Assembly: GCA_903813345.2 (NCBI GenBank)
Contig: CAIIXF020000009.1
Span: 36,323,759 to 36,387,758, forward strand
Origin: Owenia fusiformis
Lineage: Eukaryota > Annelida > Polychaeta > Sabellida > Oweniidae
Length of the DNA stretch: 64,000 bases
Direction: 5' to 3'
The position numbers were made by a program, and so were the translations under genes. Positions within the stretch are counted from its first letter, which is position 1; the number at the start of each line of letters is the position of its first letter. This document shows, piece by piece, positions 32,392 to 42,927 of this stretch. The notes under the pieces are model-generated. The model was not told where the DNA came from, did no database searches, and worked only from the letters and a program-made list of their open reading frames with translations.

Positions 32392-32459
32392 ATGCTTAAA
32401 CCAAAAGCATTAACACAGGTCCTCAGCCAGGCGAATACTGGAGGTGTTCAAAGTACACT
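32392..32459 (+). CDS. LAMTOR2: LAMTOR2 exon 1
   Basis: Encodes [20 protein letters not shown] plus STL in part. The donor GTAAGT at 32460 leaves phase 2. Confidence 0.97.
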
Positions 32460-35400
32460 GTAAGTGTAATAAAGTCATATGATTAAATTTTTCTATGATC
32501 CTCAAAAAACAGCCCAGCTTTTTGCCTAAATGAAACAAATACATTTTGACAGTTACTTAATCAACTTTATATGTTACTGTAAACACATTGTTCATTGGTC
32601 ATTGTTACTTTGCTAGCTAGGTGCATTCATGCACCCTCTGGGTCTCTCCCGGGGGGTCCACTTTATATAAACCTTGACGGGGATCCTCGGCGCATGTGGG
32701 GTACCTTTTTCAACGTTTGGTATGGCAATGGACCCATATTTCAGGATTTGGTATGGGAATGCCCGGAAATTTCTGACTTCTGAGGTATGGCAATGGTCGG
32801 ACTTTTGCTCTTCTGGTATGAGAATGGTCGTTGTAGATACGTTACCTAACATTAGTGGTATGGCTTTGGTCTAGTAGTTACAAATTTGAAGTTGTTTTGG
32901 ATCGTTTCCCGAAGTATCTTCTTTTCCAGGGCCTTCTTCAACTTTTGAATTTTATATGGTATGGCATTGGTCCTACATTTTGACATTTGGTATGGCATTG
33001 GTCCCATAATTGGGTATTTGGTATGGCATTGGTCCTATATTTGGACATTTGGTATGGCATTGGTCCTATATTTGGACATTTGGTATGGCCTTTGGGCGTT
33101 ATTTTGGTTGGTATGGGAACATATTGAAATTTGACAGATTGGTATGGGAACATATTGATATTTGAGGCTTCAGCCTAGGACCCCCGTCGATTTTTATATA
33201 CAGTGAACCCCCCGGGGGGTCTCTGAGGATCGTGTTGGCAAGTCCATACGACAATCCAACGCATTTGCTAGCGAACTCATCTTTCAGATCTTGGCTCTGA
33301 AACAGTGTATTCAAATTTCTCATAATAATGCATGGACTTGAGTCAATGTTTCTCTCGAAACTTACACTCAAATTTTTCATTCTGGGAACCAGTTCATACA
33401 TGTATGGTTAAAGTCCCATTAAAATAACGAAATGATGTGATATAACCACATATCTACTTACCAGTATGTTCTATGTCATCCATCGGACTAGGTTACATTG
33501 TGGAACTCAGCCAAACATGACACTTGAATGATTCTCTGGAAGTGATTTTCAAAGCACTGTTGCTTTGATAGGGAGGAAAGTACTACATTAAACAAGCTGC
33601 GGGGGTTCTCCATCACCTTGGAAACAGCTGAGTTCAATAAGCTCACTGACTATGTGGAGTCCCGTAAAAACTTTGAAAGTATCACAAATAAATCTGAAAA
33701 TATGTAATTTTGTGGTTGAGTATCTACAGTGTACACTCCTAATTTATTCAATACAAAAGCTCTGTAGCAGTGTCGCAGTACCCATTGCTCTAATGCTGGA
33801 TAGAATACTGATTTATTTATGTTTTGACTTATTGATGGATTTGATATGTTTGCAGATTATTGAACAGTGAAGGAGCTCTACTCGCTTTCTCAGGATATGG
33901 TGATCAAGATGCGCGTGTAACAGCAGCTATTGCCAGTAATATTTGGGCATCATATCTGAAGACAGGAAAAGTGACATTTAACGAAGACTCTTTACAACAT
34001 ATACTCATAGACTGCATGGTAAGGCCACATTTGTGATTGTTTAAATGACTGCTAGGTTAAAAAAAATGCAATATCACCCCTCCCCCTCCCTTCTCTCAAT
34101 TTCTACATACATGATATAGGACATAGTTTATGGTAAAATAGAAGTATCATAGGTTCTGTATTCTTTTCAGTTCCATTTTTATGTTCACCTGTAAGTCTCA
34201 AACTTTTTTGTGGACTGTGTTCAACATTTGGTGGGTGGTGTTTAATGTTTGATAGGTGATGTTTGGCACCTACTGTATATCAAACAGCAGGTGGTGGTGA
34301 CATTTTGCATGTTTATGTCTTGTTATATCACCATTACAAGTTGTGAAATATTGTTAGTCTCCTACTCTTTTTTTGATGGTGTTCGTTATTTGGTATTCAG
34401 TGGGCAGTGTTCGGTATCTATAACAAATGGCAGGTGGTGACATTTTGCATGATAATGCCTTGTTTAACATCATGTTGATGCTTTAACAGTCTAAATGACC
34501 CCAAAAGTAGTAGTTGTCATGGCCTTTATTAGGAGTTTCATCACGTAATAAATGCCAGTCCTTATAATAGTGTGACACTTGGTGACTGCTACCTTGATAT
34601 GATTGGACCACATTCTGATTTATACCCTTTGCAATCACTTGACTTAGCTTCTTAAAAGATAGCTTCGTCTTCACTCTTTCAGTTTAAGAGAAACCTTTGA
34701 ACACACTGAGCCAATCAGAGCTTGTAATTGAAAGAAGGACAACTTTCTATACATGGTCATTTTATCTGGCCTCCATTGTGTGGACCAACATTAAACATTA
34801 TCATTGCCTGACCATCTCTCTCCTAATATGGTAGCTTATCTACTTGGATAAGTATCAATCAAATAAGTATGAACATGTATAAATAAAAATATTGGTGTAA
34901 AATAAACTTATTTTATTCAGATTCTATTTATTGTTACATATTATTGAAAGTCCATGCATACACATGTCATCCTGACAGATATAGTTGGTACAGATACATT
35001 TCTAATTGTCAAACAGTAACTTTTCAATTTCAATTTCAAAATAATTTATTTCATTTTTCATTACAGATTTACAACATTATACAGGGGGTGTATAACTGCC
35101 CATTGATAATTAATTTTACAATATACAACTGTGAGCATCCAAAGTGGTACATACATCTATACAATAATATAATATAATATGAATACACTATGCAAATACA
35201 ATAATATGAGACATTAAAGAAATACAATAAAATGTTTGCTTATTCTGTACTCAGAAGGTGCAGTCTTCAAAAGAGAGAAGAGACTTTTCATTTTAATATT
35301 CAATGTTTTTCATTTAAACCCTGTTTTTACCTCCTTTCTTTTTTGCATAAAATGACAGATTTGTATTTGACCCAACCACTAAGTCTTTACCTTTGACCCT

Positions 35401-38400
35401 TGACCTTGTCATTAATACTAGTACTTCTGATTTTTAATTGCACTGTCACTTGATGACTGCAATTCATGAATCAGCATTCGGGTCCTCGGATCGGGAGTCG
35501 GTGGTATGCGACCTTTAACCCTGTCGAAGCTTTATAACACTTTCGCCACCCCATCAATGACGTATGGTGCTAGCGTTATCCCTTATTCATCAAAAGATAT
35601 CAATAAACTCGAAACGGCGCAGCGAAAAATTGGCAGGAAAATACAATCCTTTCCCGAATGAGCGGAATGCCCCGTAGCCTACGAGCCACTTGGATGGGAA
35701 GGTATAGAATACCAGATCGATACAGCAAAACTAATGTTCATATGGATGTTACTGAGTTTGCCTTGCAACAACATATACAAAAGACTGTTGATTTTACGAA
35801 TGACACTTATGGAATTTGACTTTAAAGGAATTAAAATGTCATCCCCCATCGCACATATGTGGTGCACGGCCAGGAAATACGATCTTTCGGAAATTGTAAA
35901 ACTAATGTTAGATGGACAAATGATCTCCAAAAGTAGTTGGAAACGTCTAGTAAAATGTCGAATTCGAGACCTACAAGAATCAATGTTTCAATAAGATGCA
36001 TGTTATACGAAGGTTTATCTTATTTTATCAATGGTCACTCATGTCTAATTCCAAATAGCTGGTATGTTTTGTGTCAAAGGATGCCACGATTGAAAAAACA
36101 ATTTACAACTGTTGTGAAGTTAATGACTGGTCAATTAGGTCTAAACGGTCACAAAAAGTGGGATATCTCAAAAGAAAATGGTCGATTGTGCAATGTCTGC
36201 AACTTAAATGAAATTGAATCAATCGAACATTTTCTCTGCCATTGCGAGTTGTATGTTGAAGAAAGGTTAGCACTTTACGAAATCTATAAATATAACGATA
36301 CAAGTAGTGTTAAAGATCGCATCAATCTGATCTTAAATTGTACAAACGACGATCTTGCATTGCAAGCTGTCTTAATAATTCACTCAATGTATATCAAGAG
36401 ACAAGCAACGCTCGCAACTTCGATCATTTCATAAACATGAGCAAATAATTTATCCATTTTTTTATTTATGTATTAACTTCCAATTAATGTACAATTGTAA
36501 CTCTCTTATATAAGAGGTAAATAAAGAATACAATACAATACAATTACAAAAATATATATTGTATTAATTAGTATTTCCAACTAGTTTTGTATCAATTACT
36601 TCATTATATTCTTTCATGTGATATTTGGAACCTCTGGTAACACCTTGAGATAAAGGTGTTAACTTGAGATAAAGGTGTTATCACAATTCGTTGATATCAA
36701 GTCCTAAGGATTGCTGCTAATGTTTTTTTTATAAAACTTTGGCAATCAATTGCATGTCTTCTATTGTTTACTAAAGGAATAAATTTATGTATAAAAAAAA
36801 AAAAAAAGTCCTAAGGATTTCCATGCCATTCTTATTGCTTAATTACAACAATAGATGGCCATAAAATCTCTACAAGTATTAGTGTGTAGCCATACAATGT
36901 ACTCCAAGATCTGTTGCACATGTGCATGTATGGTCGACCGTACCAATCCTGTCATAAGTTTTAACTGTAGCACCGGGACCCAATTTCCCGAATAAAAATG
37001 ATCCACTTCCACCATCTTGATTCATCCAGAAATCAGTATATGCTTCAATGAACTCATATTTAGATATCTCACCAGTACCATCACTATCTACTGCTTCAAA
37101 CCCATTTTCTGGGAGACTGCAGTTCATTCCAAAAATCTCAAGAAAGTATTTGTATTTTTCAACTCCAATACCTCCCTCTTGGTCACTATCCAGAATGTCA
37201 TACAGATGTTCAGCACTATGCAATATAGCAGCATTAAGGTAATCCTTATATTCTTTTTTTGAAAAGTACGATAGAAGAGCATTTGTGAATCCATCCTTTG
37301 ATACTTGATGATCTGGGGCATCACCTTTTCCAGCTGTTATAATCGTATTCCACATTATGTCTATAAATATGAATTTCAAGCCATTACGACGTGGCTTGCC
37401 CATCTTGCGACCTAATTGTAGGTAACTATTCTCTATTCTATCAAGTAGATTGAAAAAGTCACTTTTCTGAAGAAAGCCATCTCCAGTTTGGTCTAGCATC
37501 CGGAAAACTATAGACATTTTCTCTCTCCAAAATGATGAGCCTTCCGTCATGTTTGTAACTTCTTGTCCTTTTTTGCTTTGAACTTCTACTGTGTAAGTAT
37601 TAAATTGCCAACTGTATAGAAATGTATTACTTTCATCAAATTTTATTATAGCCGTCAAGTCTCCAGCCCCTTTCTAATGGCTGCACTGCTACCAGTACAG
37701 TACTAAACAGTATTTGTCACTACTGTAATTCCTTGGATAACTTACTTTATTAGCTTGTTGACACAATTATTTAGAAAAGTTGATTGTTTGTTTTATATTT
37801 TTCAAACTTCACACTAATCTGCTATTTGGCAAGTTTGTTTATCAGTTTTCATCATAGAAAACAATAGAAGATTAACAGTATATTAATCTACTCCTGATTT
37901 ATACACTACAACACAAACACATATTTGAACACGTATTTCATTGATCCATTTTGTTATGTTTATCAAATGAAAAAACATTATCACAGGCTGGTATCGAAAT
38001 TATTGTCCGCTTTGACGGAGCATGCTATTTTTCATAAAAACACTAAGAATACTTCACAATTTATTTTTTAACTCATATGTTTCGTTATACCATACAAAAT
38101 TACTTACTCCATGCAATGGATATATCATTTGCCGGTAACTTTCACTTCTGTTTGAAGTCCAATTACGCTGGGAAGAAAAGCTATTGAAAATGGCGCCGGA
38201 GTATCATACTTCAAAATGTACCATTTCTTGTTTAACTTTCTAATGGAACGATATAGTGACACGATAATATTTGCACATGGTTTCAGCATAAGTATGAAGG
38301 TATAAATGAGATGTTGATGTATTTGGTCTTTTTATCGTACCTAACAAGAGGTACGATATTGTAGTCAGCTTGACGGGCGGGCGGGCGGGCGGCGGCGGGC

Positions 38401-41400
38401 GGTGTCTCACTTTTCAGCTTGTCTACAGGTTTCCAGCCAAACCATTTGAAGGATTCATCTGAAATTTTCAGGGATGTTTCTACATATCAAAGTCAAGAAC
38501 TGATTAGTTTTTGGGCATTCTGGGTAAATTTTAAGGTGGCCATTTTGGATTTTCGTCCTAAAATCTTCACTTTCAAGACTTGTCTACAGGTTTTCAGCCA
38601 AACCATTTGAGGGATTCATCTGAAATTTTCAGGGATGTTTCTACATATCAACGTCAAGAACTGATTAGTTTTTGGGCATTCTGGGTAAATTTTAAGGTGA
38701 GCATTTTGGATTTTCCGTCCTAAAATCTTTACTTTCAAGACTTGTCTACAGGTTTCCAGCCAAACCATTTGAGGGATTCATCTGAAATTTTCAGGGATGT
38801 TTCTACATATCAACGTCAAGAACTGATTAGTTTTTGGGCATTCTGGGTAAATGTTAAGGCTGCCATTTTAGATTTTCCGTCCTAAAATCTTGTCTATCGA
38901 GGCTTGTCTACAGGGTTCCAGCCAAACCGTTCAAATTTTTACATATGTTACACAGTGATAAGTTCTAGAGCTCACACTGGAATAGCCTGATTACGGTAAA
39001 GTCAGATACCGTTGTCACAAATGGCGGACATAACTGTCGCTTCAATTAGATTTTCATGAACTGTATGTTTAATAGAGTACCTAGACTAAATTCCTTTGGA
39101 ACAACAAGCAATCAAAGTGTCTTAATACTCATTGTACAGTTAATAATGTTCTACCATCGAAATAAAGTCTTTAATTCTACCGACCAAAATGAGATACGGG
39201 ACAACGGACACTGTAATTACCATATGCCGTTGTCTTTCTAAATTACCCAAATTCAGATTCCGTTGTCATTGACGATATCGAAGACGCTATATTGTGGCAA
39301 TTCATGACCCAATCTGATGGAAAATGGGATTTCATATGATACATTATCACAAGAGCTCAATGCATGCACATAATTAGTGATGATAAAATCCCATGAAATG
39401 AAGACCAAGTGATTAGACAGTTGAAGCGACGGTTATGTCCGCCATTTTGTGACAACGGTATCTGACTTTACCGTAGTCAGGCTATTCCGGTGTGAGAGCT
39501 GATTAACTTTTCTGCGGCCATCTGGCTTTCTTGGTCAACAAGACCACAATGCTGTGTTTTAGGTACGATATTGTTCACGTCTGTGCCTTGTTATCATTAT
39601 TTTCACTGTTTGCAACGTAAATGTACATGAGATCAGGACATAGTATGTCTGTATAATCAGCCAACTTTCTGCTCCCTGTACTATTGAACAATTTACATTC
39701 CTTGTACCCTGAATTGATCGACTTTTGCAACTGTGTACCGTAATATTTCAAAATTTAAAACGATATTATTTACATTCTTTCTTCAACTATCATATAACTT
39801 GGAACATGGACTTCACTTTTGCACCACTGAAGTTCAACGAATAGCAATAATGACTCACTCCGAGCACCAAACGTATTAACCTTTTGACTAAACAGTCGAT
39901 ATACTCAAAAGCGACCTGGTTGAAAACCAAAAGATTTGCGCATGCGCGATCGAGGTAGGGTAGTGTGATCCACCTACAATAGTACAATAAAGTTTGATAG
40001 TAAATTAGCCATCCCTCCAAAGGCAAATTATAGGGCTAATAACTGTGATATAGGGCTAATAACGGTGATATGCATGCTTACAACTCGGGGTTTACAAAAA
40101 TGCAACCAATCGTGTTGGTGAATAAATGCTTCGTGATAACCTAATAATAAGCTTATAAGCTCGCCCAAGTAATTGGGCAATAGAGTTTTAGGGACCATCT
40201 CACTAAAGTTTTGTTGCGCTAAAGTTTCCACTTCTACAGTATCTGGAAATGAAAGATTTCAACGGTTTTAAAAATTCAATGCAAGTCCAAGTGTTAATAC
40301 AGAATAGATCGAATCATGATTCGACCCATTCCGTATTAACAATAACGCAGATGCGAGTAGGTAGTTACCAGATTCACCACCAGGTGGCTCGTTCGGGTCA
40401 GATAGCATGGCGGGTATAGGATAGGGTATAGGGTATAGGTATATGTGGTCGCCGGGTTGGCCTAGTGGTTAAGGCATTGATCTGAAAAGCAGGAAGTCTG
40501 GCTTCAAGCTGAAAAGTAGAGGTCTTGGGTTCAAACCCAGGTCACAGCACTTCTTGTGATTTGTCTTTGACCTATGACTGCTGACCTATACCGGCGATTA
40601 CTAGAGTGCTGCTAACTCGATAAAAGGCTGGCGCTGGCTAGAATTGTCTATGGTTCTAGCCAGGATAAAGGTACCAGTTCTTCAACTCGAAAATGGGAAG
40701 AGCTGCTCTACCTAAGTGACTAATATGTCATGATATGACATCTAAAGAGTCAATAAAAGATATATATATATATAGGAGAAAGTTCCCTTAAACTTAAATC
40801 ACATCTGTTTTAATGATTCAATTTTCATATAACCCTTATGTATCTAATAGTTATGCAAACTGAAATATGTCCAGTAAAAGAAAATGTTATCTATCCAATA
40901 CAAGAAAAGATATTTCACTTTTTGTGATTTTGTATCATGGGGTCTATGGGGAATCAACCCGAACAAGAAGTCACATTTTCAAAAAAAATAAAATTTTCAA
41001 AGTTGATAAACAATTTTCGAAAACATATTTCTAGATGTACTTTTTCACGTAGATTTCAAATATGACATCACCTTGACTGAATTTTGAATATTTAATGACA
41101 CAAATCAAGATTATTTCTACTCGCACCTAGTCTATTGGACTAGCATTGAGTTTTTTAAAATCTTGAAATTGTATATTTGGAACCAATTTGACATGCTTGG
41201 TTTGTAAAGGACTAAAGTATCCATCGGCGGCAAATGAAATCAGTTTCAATAGTTTAAGTTTCAAAAAGTTATGACAACTTTTGTCATTTTTTCAGGACTT
41301 CATAAAATGGTATGATATTAACTCTACATTGTTTATTGATATATGGATGCATACCTAAAATTTTGAGAATACATTATTCTAGTATTGTGAACATTTTAAG

Positions 41401-42927
41401 GATAGGAAAAATTGCAATCACCCAAGTGTCAAACCTATTGTTATTATTTCAGGAAGGGGAAGTTGCAATCATCCAAGTGTCAAACCTATTGTTATTATTC
41501 CAAGAAGGGAAAGTTGAAACCATCCAAGTGTCAAACCTGTTGTTTATTTCAGGAAGAAAAAGTTACAATCATCCAAGTGTCAAACCTATTGTTATTATTC
41601 CAGGAAGGGAAAGTTGCAAGCATCCAAGTGTCAAACCTATTGTTATTATTTAAGGAAGGGAACGTTGCAATCATCCAAGTGTCAAACCTATTGTTATTAT
41701 TCCAGGAAGGGAAAGTTGCAATCATCCAAGTGTCAAACCTATTGTTATTATTCCAGGAAGGGAAAGTTACATACAATCATCCAAGTGTCAAACCTATTGT
41801 TATTATTTCAGGAAGGTAAAGTTGCAATCATCCAAGTGTCAAACCTATTGTTGTTTATTACAGGAAGGGAAAGTTGCAATCACCCAGGTGTCAAACCAAT
41901 TGTTATTATTTTAGGAAGGGAAAGTTGCAATCAAAGGTATATAACCCTTACCCTATTGTTATTATTATTTTAGGAAGGGAAAGTCGCAACCATCCAAGTG
42001 TCAAACCTGAAAATGAGAAATATATACATGATTTAAAAAAAAAAAGTGTCAAACCTGTTGTTTATAATTTCAGGATGGGAAAGTTGCAATCACCCAGGTG
42101 TCAAATCTATTGTTGTGCATCTATGCTAAGTCATCAGTTGGGTTTGGAATGCTGAAAGCGAAGGTAAGCAAAAAGAATAAATCAGACAATTGCTTAATGT
42201 AGTTATTCCCTTACGCTTTGCAGTTTTCATTTCATACCAAAGGCACAATAATAAGAGAATAGATGGAAACATTGAATAGGATTACGTAATTATCCCACCG
42301 AACGAAGTTCGAGGTTCGAGGGGGATATAGAGAAGCCGTCCATCCGTCTGTTCGTCCGTCCGTCCGTGTGTTTCGGGCGATAACTCCAATACCGTTTGAC
42401 AGATTTGGTTCAAATTTTATAGGCTTATGCCTTATGAGTGTAGGACCTCTACCCGAGAAGGAATTTTCAATATGGCCGCTCAATTCAAATTGGCCGCCAT
42501 TTTTCGTAAAAAATGTAATTGTTGATAACTCAAATACAAGTTGACGGATTTGGTTCAAATTTTATATGCTGATGCCTAGGGACAAAGGAGTTTCGCACAA
42601 AAAGAGATTTTCAAGATGGCTGCTTAATTTTAATGTTTTGTTCGGTGGGATTTGCTACTCCATGGAGTTGCTGTTTTTCTAGTTTGTTTCTTTAACAAGT
42701 TAAATGTGAATATTTCTTAATTTAATGTAAGTCTTAAAGTGATTGGAAATCAATCATTTTATATCAGTCATTCAATCAGAAATCATTTCATTCGTAATTG
42801 TGAACAATACCCCTATTATGCAATCGCTCCTTAAAACTAACCTTCAAAAAATTGTTTTTCTTTTTTCCAGTTAGATGCACTTTCATCATATCTAGAGGAA
42901 CCACTGACACAAGTTGCTGCTTCTTGA
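32392..42927 (+). CDS. LAMTOR2: LAMTOR2 (Ragulator subunit p14/ROBLD3), complete, four exons
   Basis: Exons 32392-32459, 33856-34018, 42074-42163 and 42871-42927 give 125 codons plus stop, exactly the human length. The protein starts [20 protein letters not shown], continues [48 protein letters not shown], and ends [12 protein letters not shown], near-identical to vertebrate p14. LAMTOR2 is a roadblock-fold subunit that pairs with LAMTOR3 in Ragulator on late endosomes and lysosomes, anchoring Rag GTPases for mTORC1 and the MP1-MEK scaffold (family knowledge). Phase is consistent at each junction (2, 0, 0). Intron 2 is 8 kb and ends in a tandem array derived from exon 3. Divergent from ECD, sharing a 159-bp promoter. 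Confidence 0.98.
32645..33222. mobile_element. GGTATGG-repeat fold-back element in LAMTOR2 intron 1
   Basis: Ends tctcccggggggtccacttt and, inverted, gaaccccccggggggtc. Further pairing runs through TATATAAA..GACGGGG. Between them the motif ggtatgg(c/g)a recurs more than ten times, including three near-identical 31-bp units around 32970-33085. ORFs on both strands here are repeat artefacts. I recall similar CCGGGGGG/GGTATGG elements from other marine invertebrates but cannot check this. Confidence 0.75.
33235..33855. other. Rest of LAMTOR2 intron 1
   Basis: 33235-33400 has an open minus-strand frame without a recognised product. 33405-33515 repeats the arm of the TIR element at 30318-30450 (tctacttaccagtatgttct, then atgtcatcc). 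The remainder is plain AT-rich intron. Confidence 0.5.
33856..34018 (+). CDS. LAMTOR2: LAMTOR2 exon 2
   Basis: Acceptor tttgcAG, donor GTAAGG. It encodes [20 protein letters not shown] through [14 protein letters not shown], the roadblock core, and ends in phase 0. Confidence 0.97.
34205..34450 (-). mobile_element. CCAAC-rich MITE, two inverted copies
   Basis: Two successive reverse-oriented copies, each ending caggtggtgacattttgcat (34290-34310 and 34430-34450), with TTGGTGGGTGGTG-type sequence before them. Both match the forward copies at 19565 and 52945. Confidence 0.65.
34650..34770 (-). mobile_element. Diverged relic of the 9-bp-TSD promoter-bearing element
   Basis: Minus-strand sequence contains ctgattggctcagtgtgttc, gaaagagtgaagacgaagct and atcttttaagaag, matching the 3' third of 17394-17771, including its CCAAT box. 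The TATA part is decayed. Confidence 0.65.
35464..36545 (+). pseudogene. 5'-truncated, dead LINE (non-LTR retrotransposon) 3' end
   Basis: Plus-strand translation from about 35470 reads [45 protein letters not shown], stop, then [20 protein letters not shown], the post-RT region of jockey/CR1-type LINE ORF2. After a frameshift near 35985, a 165-codon frame ends with [20 protein letters not shown], the C-terminal CxxC..H..C knuckle of such elements. Defects are a TGA at 35659-35661 (probable CGA decay) and the frameshift. The element ends at about 36430, with a 3' tail of ATACA repeats near 36520-36542. The RT catalytic core is absent. It sits in the sense orientation in LAMTOR2 intron 2. Confidence 0.85.
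36701..36819 (+). mobile_element. Short retroposed poly(A) insertion with 12-bp TSD
   Basis: gtcctaaggatt occurs at 36701-36712 and again at 36808-36819. Between them are ~80 bases ending with AATAAA (36778-36783), ATTTATGTAT and an A15 run. This is a hallmark LINE-mobilised insertion, probably a 5'-truncated mRNA 3' end. The parent transcript is unknown; the oligo(T)8 inside may be original. Confidence 0.85.
36879..37550 (-). CDS. Sarcoplasmic calcium-binding protein-like EF-hand protein, single exon, nested in LAMTOR2 intron 2
   Basis: A 223-codon minus-strand ORF from the ATG at 37550 ([12 protein letters not shown]); the frame stays open farther upstream but without a better ATG. EF-hand loops are at residues 20-31 ([12 protein letters not shown]), 121-132 ([12 protein letters not shown], imperfect) and 155-166 ([12 protein letters not shown], canonical), with a degenerate second site near 75-90. 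The closing [16 protein letters not shown] resembles the end of invertebrate sarcoplasmic calcium-binding proteins (usually about 175-195 aa), followed here by about 33 extra residues with four Cys/His pairs. The family buffers cytosolic calcium. No introns and no premature stops, antisense to its host gene. It may be an old retrocopy or the last exon of a longer gene. No minus-strand poly(T) TSD signature was seen. Confidence 0.75.
   Translation of the reverse strand: MTEGSSFWREKMSIVFRMLDQTGDGFLQKSDFFNLLDRIENSYLQLGRKMGKPRRNGLKFIFIDIMWNTIITAGKGDAPDHQVSKDGFTNALLSYFSKKEYKDYLNAAILHSAEHLYDILDSDQEGGIGVEKYKYFLEIFGMNCSLPENGFEAVDSDGTGEISKYEFIEAYTDFWMNQDGGSGSFLFGKLGPGATVKTYDRIGTVDHTCTCATDLGVHCMATH
37700..38340. 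other. LAMTOR2 intron 2 segment upstream of the EF-hand ORF
   Basis: AT-rich. I see no repeat family or coding exon. If the EF-hand gene is active, its promoter or a 5' exon should lie here. Confidence 0.4.
38371..38400. repeat. GGGCGGGC microsatellite
   Basis: A run of gggc/ggc units at the start of the triplicated block, the inverse of the GTCCGTCC tract in the element at 42292. Confidence 0.85.
38412..38930. repeat. Tandem repeat, ~162 bp unit, just over three copies
   Basis: tgtctacagg recurs at 38420, 38581, 38743 and 38905 (spacing 161, 162, 162). Units share gtttccagccaaaccatttg, aggattcatctgaaattttc and tagtttttgggcattctggg at more than 95 percent by eye, so the expansion is recent. 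A short motif, aggtacgatattgt, brackets the wider block (38351 and 39562). Confidence 0.92.
38966..39500. mobile_element. TIR element with ~85-bp arms
   Basis: agctcacactggaatagcct, then gattacggtaaagtcagata, ccgttgtcacaaatggcgga at the left recur inverted at 39416-39500. The middle has no useful ORF. It is probably inserted within the larger block bounded by the aggtacgatattgt motifs. Confidence 0.85.
40296..40340. repeat. Palindrome TAATACAGAATxxxTCGAATCATGATTCGA
   Basis: A perfect 16-bp centre (tcgaatcatgattcga) with partly paired flanks (taatacagaat / attccgtatta). Confidence 0.7.
40450..40775 (+). mobile_element. tRNA-derived SINE
   Basis: A Pol III box A is visible (ttggcctagtggttaaggc, about 40457) and a box B (gggttcaaaccc, about 40528). 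A ~20-base insertion between them makes the tRNA-like head longer than a true tRNA. A ~210-bp tRNA-unrelated body follows, ending in a short AT dinucleotide tail (about 40760-40775). It is preceded by a GGTATA-rich run. Parent tRNA not determined. Confidence 0.75.
40780..41400. other. LAMTOR2 intron 2, plain segment
   Basis: AT-rich sequence. A weak similarity (agaaaagatatttcactttt) to 48125-48170 hints at an old shared repeat. No gene. Confidence 0.4.
41406..42073 (+). repeat. Exon-derived minisatellite: ~12 tandem copies of LAMTOR2 exon 3 acceptor plus exon start
   Basis: Units begin at 41406, 41453, 41504, 41553, 41604, 41655, 41706, 41757, 41812, 41864, 41915 and 41974. Most are 51 bp (range 47-59, the last degraded to 100). 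The unit is gaagggaaagttgcaatcat, ccaagtgtcaaacctattgt, tattattccag. The first ~40 bases are homologous to the start of exon 3 (42074), and the last ~11 imitate the intron end with its AG. Because 51 is a multiple of three, runs of units stay open and read [17 protein letters not shown] repeatedly. Only the array's last unit is followed by the intact exon with its donor. This is the array's origin by position and sequence; function is unknown. Confidence 0.95.
42074..42163 (+). CDS. LAMTOR2: LAMTOR2 exon 3
   Basis: Acceptor aatttcAG, donor GTAAGC. It encodes [20 protein letters not shown] then [10 protein letters not shown]. Its first ~40 bases are the parent of the tandem array immediately upstream. 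It starts with Asp where the array units and the vertebrate protein have Glu. Confidence 0.97.
42292..42652. mobile_element. TIR element with GTCCGTCC tract in LAMTOR2 intron 3
   Basis: Ends tatcccaccgaacgaagttc and gttttgttcggtgggat are inverted. It contains cgtccgtccgtccgtgtg and two internal copies of acagatttggttcaaatttt, about 140 bp apart. No coding capacity. Confidence 0.8.
42871..42927 (+). CDS. LAMTOR2: LAMTOR2 exon 4 (stop codon)
   Basis: Acceptor tttccAG. It encodes [18 protein letters not shown] and the TGA at 42925-42927. Confidence 0.97.
   Translation, partial: LDALSSYLEEPLTQVAAS

Follow-up and report, generated by a model that had tools for sequence, protein, structure and literature searches.

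LAMTOR2 and the repeat array ahead of its third exon

A stretch of 64,000 nt from the annelid Owenia fusiformis (contig CAIIXF020000009.1, positions 36,323,759 to 36,387,758; hereafter the window, with coordinates counted from its first letter) holds a whole gene for the Ragulator subunit LAMTOR2, the second intron of which ends in a minisatellite. In each of the 12 minisatellite units an intron end runs into a duplicate of exon 3's opening ~41-46 nt, and the real exon 3 follows the last of them. An initial annotation of this DNA had described LAMTOR2 as otherwise intact, which is borne out by the product of exons 1-4 joined together: 125/125 of its residues align end to end with mammalian LAMTOR2. 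The features of the gene and of the array, the latter delimited by Tandem Repeats Finder, a repeat search, and unit alignment, are as follows. Splice-site scores here and below are in bits and come from matrices that were not trained on Owenia fusiformis.

32392-32459, + strand: LAMTOR2 exon 1, from protein homology; 22 residues plus 2 nt, donor GTAAGT
33856-34018, + strand: LAMTOR2 exon 2; ends ATG/GTAAGG, phase 0 into exon 3
34019-42073, + strand: LAMTOR2 intron 2; 8,055 nt, with the minisatellite array at its 3' end
41395-42073, + strand: exon-boundary minisatellite; 12 units of intron end plus start of exon 3
41401-41452, + strand: unit 1, at the 5' margin of the array; acceptor score only 1.0 bits (weak), upstream flank without the GTGTCAAACC block common to most other units
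41504-41552, + strand: unit 3; AA instead of AG, the sole such unit among the 12
41553-41816, + strand: longest open in-frame run; 88 residues from phase-0 entry at 41553, stop TAA at 41817
41864-41914, + strand: unit 10; strongest decoy acceptor, 10.4 bits versus 9.2 at the true site
41974-42073, + strand: last unit, degraded; A-run and in-frame TAA at 42034
42046-42073, + strand: true 3' splice site region, repeat-derived; GTGTCAAACCTGTTGTT corresponds to exon 3's own GTGTCAAATCTATTGTT
42074-42163, + strand: LAMTOR2 exon 3; 30 residues, 90 nt, donor AAG/GTAAGC
42871-42927, + strand: LAMTOR2 exon 4; 18 residues, then stop

The upstream units start at 41401, 41453, 41504, 41553, 41604, 41655, 41706, 41757, 41812, 41864, 41915, and 41974, with the true exon at 42074, and the successive spacings of 52, 51, 49, 51, 51, 51, 51, 55, 52, 51, 59, and 100 are exactly 51 bp in 6/12 cases. 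Tandem Repeats Finder reports a period of 51 with 10.5 copies and a score of 821 at 41395-41933. The AG dinucleotide is kept in 11/12 units, the one at 41504 having AA. When compared over gapped 75-nt windows, units 2, 5, 6, and 7 are mutually 95-99% alike, whereas units 1, 11, and 12 share 49-69% identity with the others. Eleven of the 12 units start with GAA (Glu) and unit 1 with GAT, although the Asp of unit 1 need not be homologous to that of exon 3 because the alignment places an insertion at the start of this unit. As for possible older units further upstream, the best local match, at 41278-41297, scores 25; in the null distribution the 95th percentile is 21 and the maximum 28. A DNA search of the whole genome, in which very common words were skipped, returned nine matches, all of them inside the array and exon 3.

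The initial annotation had counted about 12 tandem copies of the acceptor and exon 3 start, most of them with a usable AG and one with AA, and our own counts agree. Its range of 41406-42163 located the array properly but began it too late, the start being at about 41395-41401. Its statements that the units encode Glu where the exon has Asp, and that 51-bp units keep the frame and can be read as a repeated 17-residue peptide, each hold in part, the former for every unit but the first and the latter over runs that are broken elsewhere by indels. The suggestion that the array had been homogenised separately fits the central units being more alike than the edge units.

No second LAMTOR2 copy or retrocopy was seen in a genome search that a weak one could escape, and the sole other Robl_LC7 match in the genome (L001) looks on visual inspection like a dynein roadblock chain. 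Intron 2 of LAMTOR2 also contains a 162-bp tandem array of 3.2 copies (window positions 38407-38928). Within 35500-36440 and 36900-37600, inspection by eye suggests the remains of a reverse transcriptase on the + strand and a frame resembling an EF hand on the - strand.

Decoy acceptors and the predicted effects of their use

The true acceptor carries the mark of the array itself. The 17 bases at its positions -28 to -12 agree with exon 3's GTGTCAAATCTATTGTT at 15/17, a value reached by 0/2,000 shuffled intron ends, and the working acceptor is therefore a repeat copy in its own right. The pyrimidine tract and branch region serving the 42074 acceptor are recycled coding sequence.

By the acceptor matrix, the true site at 42074 scores 9.2 and the decoys range from -1.8 (the AA unit) to 10.4. 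As many as 8/12 decoys lie above 6.8, the 95th percentile of the 345 AGs found in ~7.2 kb of intron 2, and one of these is above the true site. The choice of 42074 is thus left unexplained by local site sequence alone. On the donor side, exon 2 scores 9.4 and exon 3 scores 11.3, and three donor-like sites above 5 occur in the array, after 41815, 41887, and 41936, with scores of 7.2, 5.2, and 5.3, respectively. Cassette microexons formed by way of these three sites were considered and are thought unlikely.

Reading-frame analysis gives a uniform outcome for entry at a decoy: in phase 0, all 12 unit starts meet a stop codon before 42074. The initial annotation had pointed to a TAA near 42034 as truncating products that enter upstream. 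All 12 entries would indeed be truncated, but the array has seven distinct stops (41515, 41651, 41817, 41912, 41942, 41971, and 42034), of which this codon comes last, and 11/12 entries terminate before it. Even the entry at 41553, which gives the longest open run, is read through four complete 17-residue repeats before indels disrupt the frame, i.e., the reading frame is not preserved across the array. Use of a decoy would yield exons of 190-763 nt, compared with 90 nt for the true exon 3. Premature stops more than 50-55 nt before an exon junction usually make a transcript a target for decay. With the last of the stops ending 127 nt ahead of the exon 3/4 junction, decoy transcripts would be decay targets under this rule, and the premature stop upstream of a later junction that characterizes poison splice elements, which act through nonsense-mediated decay, is predicted from the reading frame for 12/12 decoys.

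Exon-boundary arrays elsewhere in the genome

Further arrays first came to light around CCT exons that had been taken as splice-site controls. Exons of three conserved families were then searched for comparable arrays in a control sample of 87 exon matches, made up of 36 CCT, 29 proteasome, and 22 AAA matches. The CCT set derives from 60 matches, of which 42 fell in the examined loci and six of those were dropped as intronless, stop-containing, or composite; among first-look AAA candidates, 19/154 were scored. The test used 40-nt probes, and a copy was counted when at least 30 nt matched at 80% identity or more within 1 kb. The ends of the hidden Markov model matches are not exact exon ends, and the probed edges are approximate.

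Exon sequence was found copied in the adjacent intron at 11/87 control matches (8/65 for CCT and proteasome, 3/22 for AAA), ten of them by an edge probe. When broken down by probe position, 5' ends were matched in 6/87 cases, 3' ends in 4/87, and exon middles in 3/87 (L038, L053, and L055). L055 was matched by the middle probe alone, and one upstream acceptor copy is visible there by eye. Exon edges were matched in 10/174 cases as compared with 49/432 for noncoding probes in the same loci, a difference with a Fisher P of 0.035 that is to be taken as rough because the noncoding probes, six per locus, are not independent and some loci overlap. Since edges were matched about half as often as noncoding DNA, exon boundaries are no hotspot, and the arrays look like a background feature of the genome that is thinned rather than enriched at exons. 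The LAMTOR2 array, in short, is not special in this genome.

Four of the loci show how regular such arrays can be, the gene names being those that we take their peptides to indicate. In a CCT8-like gene (L018, G000:C11:35575238-35578426), the exon is preceded by eight tandem copies spaced 83-89 bp apart, and 8/8 of their acceptors are identical to the real site over -14 to +16. A katanin-like gene (L079, G000:C10, ~6918593) has seven upstream copies in the 900 nt scanned, with 7/7 acceptors identical to the real one over the same positions, and a PSMB5-like gene (L059, G000:C3, ~18449461) has seven upstream acceptor copies, likewise in 900 nt scanned, all with AG and with 0-3 mismatches. On the donor side, the exon of a VPS4-like AAA gene (L075, G000:C3, ~22611969-22612124) is followed by 23 donor copies, mostly at 45-bp spacing, of which 20 have GT; the real donor is ambiguous by one copy, as two equally good donors lie one unit apart.

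Outside LAMTOR2, 24/27 decoys tested are disruptive; the three decoys of the presumably CCT7-like L023 are open and in frame. At L019, the single donor copy under the probe test reads GA, and an earlier pass had found more copies of this exon end. The one copy at L065 reads AA, at a locus where the acceptor could not be placed with confidence, as was also the case for the donor of L053. Because the arrays occur in conserved, presumably essential genes, their decoys must, we infer, usually be harmless.

Further repeats were observed around CCT exons. In one CCT gene, a complete acceptor is duplicated in two perfect 30-bp copies (L012/L027, G000:C10, ~13378990), a case excluded from the probe test since the unit contains hardly any coding sequence, and a 25-kb contig with CCT exons (L017/L028, G000:C222) bears a 136-bp tandem array of 6-7 copies that are 99% alike. 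Tandem arrays with a period of at least 25 and a score of at least 100 cover 7.8% of the 244 kb in 76 loci (L007-L082), a total in which some overlapping loci are counted twice, versus 3.0% of the window.

Origin of the array and alternative explanations

Minisatellites that repeat a splice signal at an exon boundary have counterparts in other animals. The human IFI6 (6-16) minisatellite, a finding of Turri et al. in 1995, reportedly gives rise to multiple splice donor sites; like the LAMTOR2 array it repeats a splice signal at an exon boundary, although it is said to do so on the donor side with short units, in contrast to the acceptor side and the 51-bp units seen here. The likeness extends further with the 'mirage' minisatellites of lancelets (Adh3 and the globin genes BflGb6 and BflGb9), which are described as tandem duplications across an intron-exon boundary, as is the LAMTOR2 array, and can affect either boundary of an exon (PMC3087553). 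According to the same description, many but not all mirage copies keep the AG or GT, concerted evolution acts inside the cluster to the exclusion of the boundary copies, and regular splicing is left undisturbed (PMC3087553). The first two of these traits recur here, with AG in 11/12 units and with central units homogenised (95-99%) while edge units are excluded (49-69%). A later paper added mirages at TnC and PGBD5 (PMC3902484). The LAMTOR2, CCT, proteasome, and AAA arrays differ in their non-lancelet host, a lancelet host being no structural requirement. That the host is not a lancelet also follows from its innexins: 8 of 34 innexin matches in the genome cover at least 331/333 model positions, giving at least eight near-full-length matches, and only one innexin is present in lancelets (PMC8769644). 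The GFP family had no match in this genome, weak support for the same view, and none in the control genomes either. Molluscan haemocyanin, searched without a positive control, and hemerythrin also had no match, an outcome that says little where genes are split, and no COX1 match was returned. Among the papers listed in our literature searches, which covered few subscription journals, we came across no account of mirages in other animals.

Internal tandem repeats in human segmental duplications are also minisatellites at exon-intron boundaries, as at LAMTOR2, and as that source describes them they differ from one recent paralogue to another and are able to alter transcripts (PMC2812944); the array here is in one gene, of which no second copy was seen. 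In an annelid, the earthworm, metallothionein genes have intronic minisatellites and duplicated exons 4, with no boundary arrays among the features noted there (PMC12783039).

As such, we consider it likely that the LAMTOR2 array is a neutral exon-boundary minisatellite of the mirage kind, tolerated rather than selected, and one of many in a genome where tandem duplications abound. A 51-bp segment consisting of ~10 nt of intron end and ~41 nt of exon 3 would have been duplicated in tandem, probably by slippage between CTRTTGTT stretches; similar stretches are seen by eye in the intron end and in exon 3, about one unit apart, and are a plausible slippage point. The duplicated segment would then have expanded and been partly homogenised, and the pattern of closely alike central units and divergent edge units has the appearance that unequal exchange usually leaves. 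With exon 3 staying joined to the last copy, the 42074 acceptor would have come by a tract and branch region of recycled coding sequence. Splicing would most likely pick this exon-proximal site through exon definition, in which the 90-nt exon is paired with the donor after 42163, since entry at 42074 is what yields a short exon whose donor is strong (11.3). Leakage to an upstream unit, if any, would meet a premature stop and probably lead to mRNA decay, and with leakage lost in this way the array would be nearly neutral.

Several points weigh against this explanation. The evidence is genomic sequence from one assembly of one species. With 8/12 decoys strong by the matrix, leakage into them is plausible, and the matrix itself separates real from background sites only modestly: around 22 CCT exon matches, the median score of the best AG is 6.5, compared with a median of 3.6 and a 90th percentile of 8.4 for the best AG in random 79-nt stretches of intron 2. 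Finally, the comparison of AG columns speaks for neutrality, as decoy AGs within the array show no sign of having been either kept or removed (off consensus in 1/22 cells of units 2-12 versus 19/242 in the other 22 boundary columns, P 0.48), but with 22 AG cells it has low power.

Among the alternatives, splice-site migration or an intron-gain intermediate, in which tandem duplication moved the acceptor downstream as proposed for lancelet globin genes, overlaps with a tolerated minisatellite and would account for the present acceptor being itself a repeat copy and for the different intron flank of unit 1 at the 5' edge. We nevertheless find it unlikely, as the boundary of exon 3 has not shifted within the protein, with 125/125 residues aligning to mammalian LAMTOR2, and no new intron is seen. 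The lack of a new intron also sets LAMTOR2 apart from cases in which tandem duplication creates introns (Rogers; Gao and Lynch, as cited in PMC3087553), to which it is otherwise akin in offering duplicated splice signals as raw material.

The initial annotation had left two alternatives: either splicing ignores a dozen decoys, which fits the evidence, or the decoys form a poison-acceptor array specific to LAMTOR2. Under the latter, decoy use would commit some of the LAMTOR2 transcripts to nonsense-mediated decay, and copy number would tune Ragulator/mTORC1 output. The decoys would be well suited to this, as 12/12 entries run into a premature stop 127 nt or more ahead of the exon 3/4 junction, 8/12 decoys score above the 95th percentile for the 345 AGs of intron 2, and one beats the true site. 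However, the same kind of arrays occur in unrelated conserved genes (11/87 control matches), exon edges are matched less often than noncoding DNA, and being disruptive is not special to LAMTOR2 because 24/27 decoys elsewhere are disruptive too. There is also no AG conservation signal, the rate of change being like that of neighbouring columns in a test of low power. The specific role gained no support from these comparisons, and we hold it to be slightly less likely even than migration of the splice site.

An assembly error, by which copies were lost or added or the whole array is spurious, has to be kept in mind where copy number comes from the assembly alone and tandem repeats are hard to assemble, but it is highly improbable given that the array sits on a 38.9-Mb contig and that numerous substitutions and indels distinguish its units, differences not produced by stutter in an assembly. 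Least credible is an in-frame LAMTOR2 isoform with extra 17-residue repeats, for although the run from 41553 reads as such repeats, phase-0 reading from 12/12 unit starts stops before exon 3, and rescue would require splicing out of the array at donor-like sites whose scores of 5.2-7.2 compare with 9.4 at the donor of exon 2 and 11.3 at that of exon 3.

Lancelets are the animals in which mirages were described, with the proposal that new introns could be made from them; their recurrence in conserved genes outside lancelets suggests that they are a side effect of tandem duplication more generally and not a peculiarity of cephalochordates. Arrays of identical acceptors amount to a natural experiment on position and exon length, the factors of exon definition, as what decides splice-site choice, and site use at these arrays would test exon definition directly because nearby sequence cannot tell the real site from a decoy. 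A bolder view, to which we give little credence at present, is that exon-boundary arrays are common in the genome (~1 in 8 of the conserved-gene exons tested), that the spliceosome picks one of up to nine identical acceptors (the real one plus eight copies) by position alone, and that, because almost every decoy choice truncates, wrong choices would tune output, so that decoy copy number might serve as a heritable, fast-mutating rheostat on many genes, including LAMTOR2.

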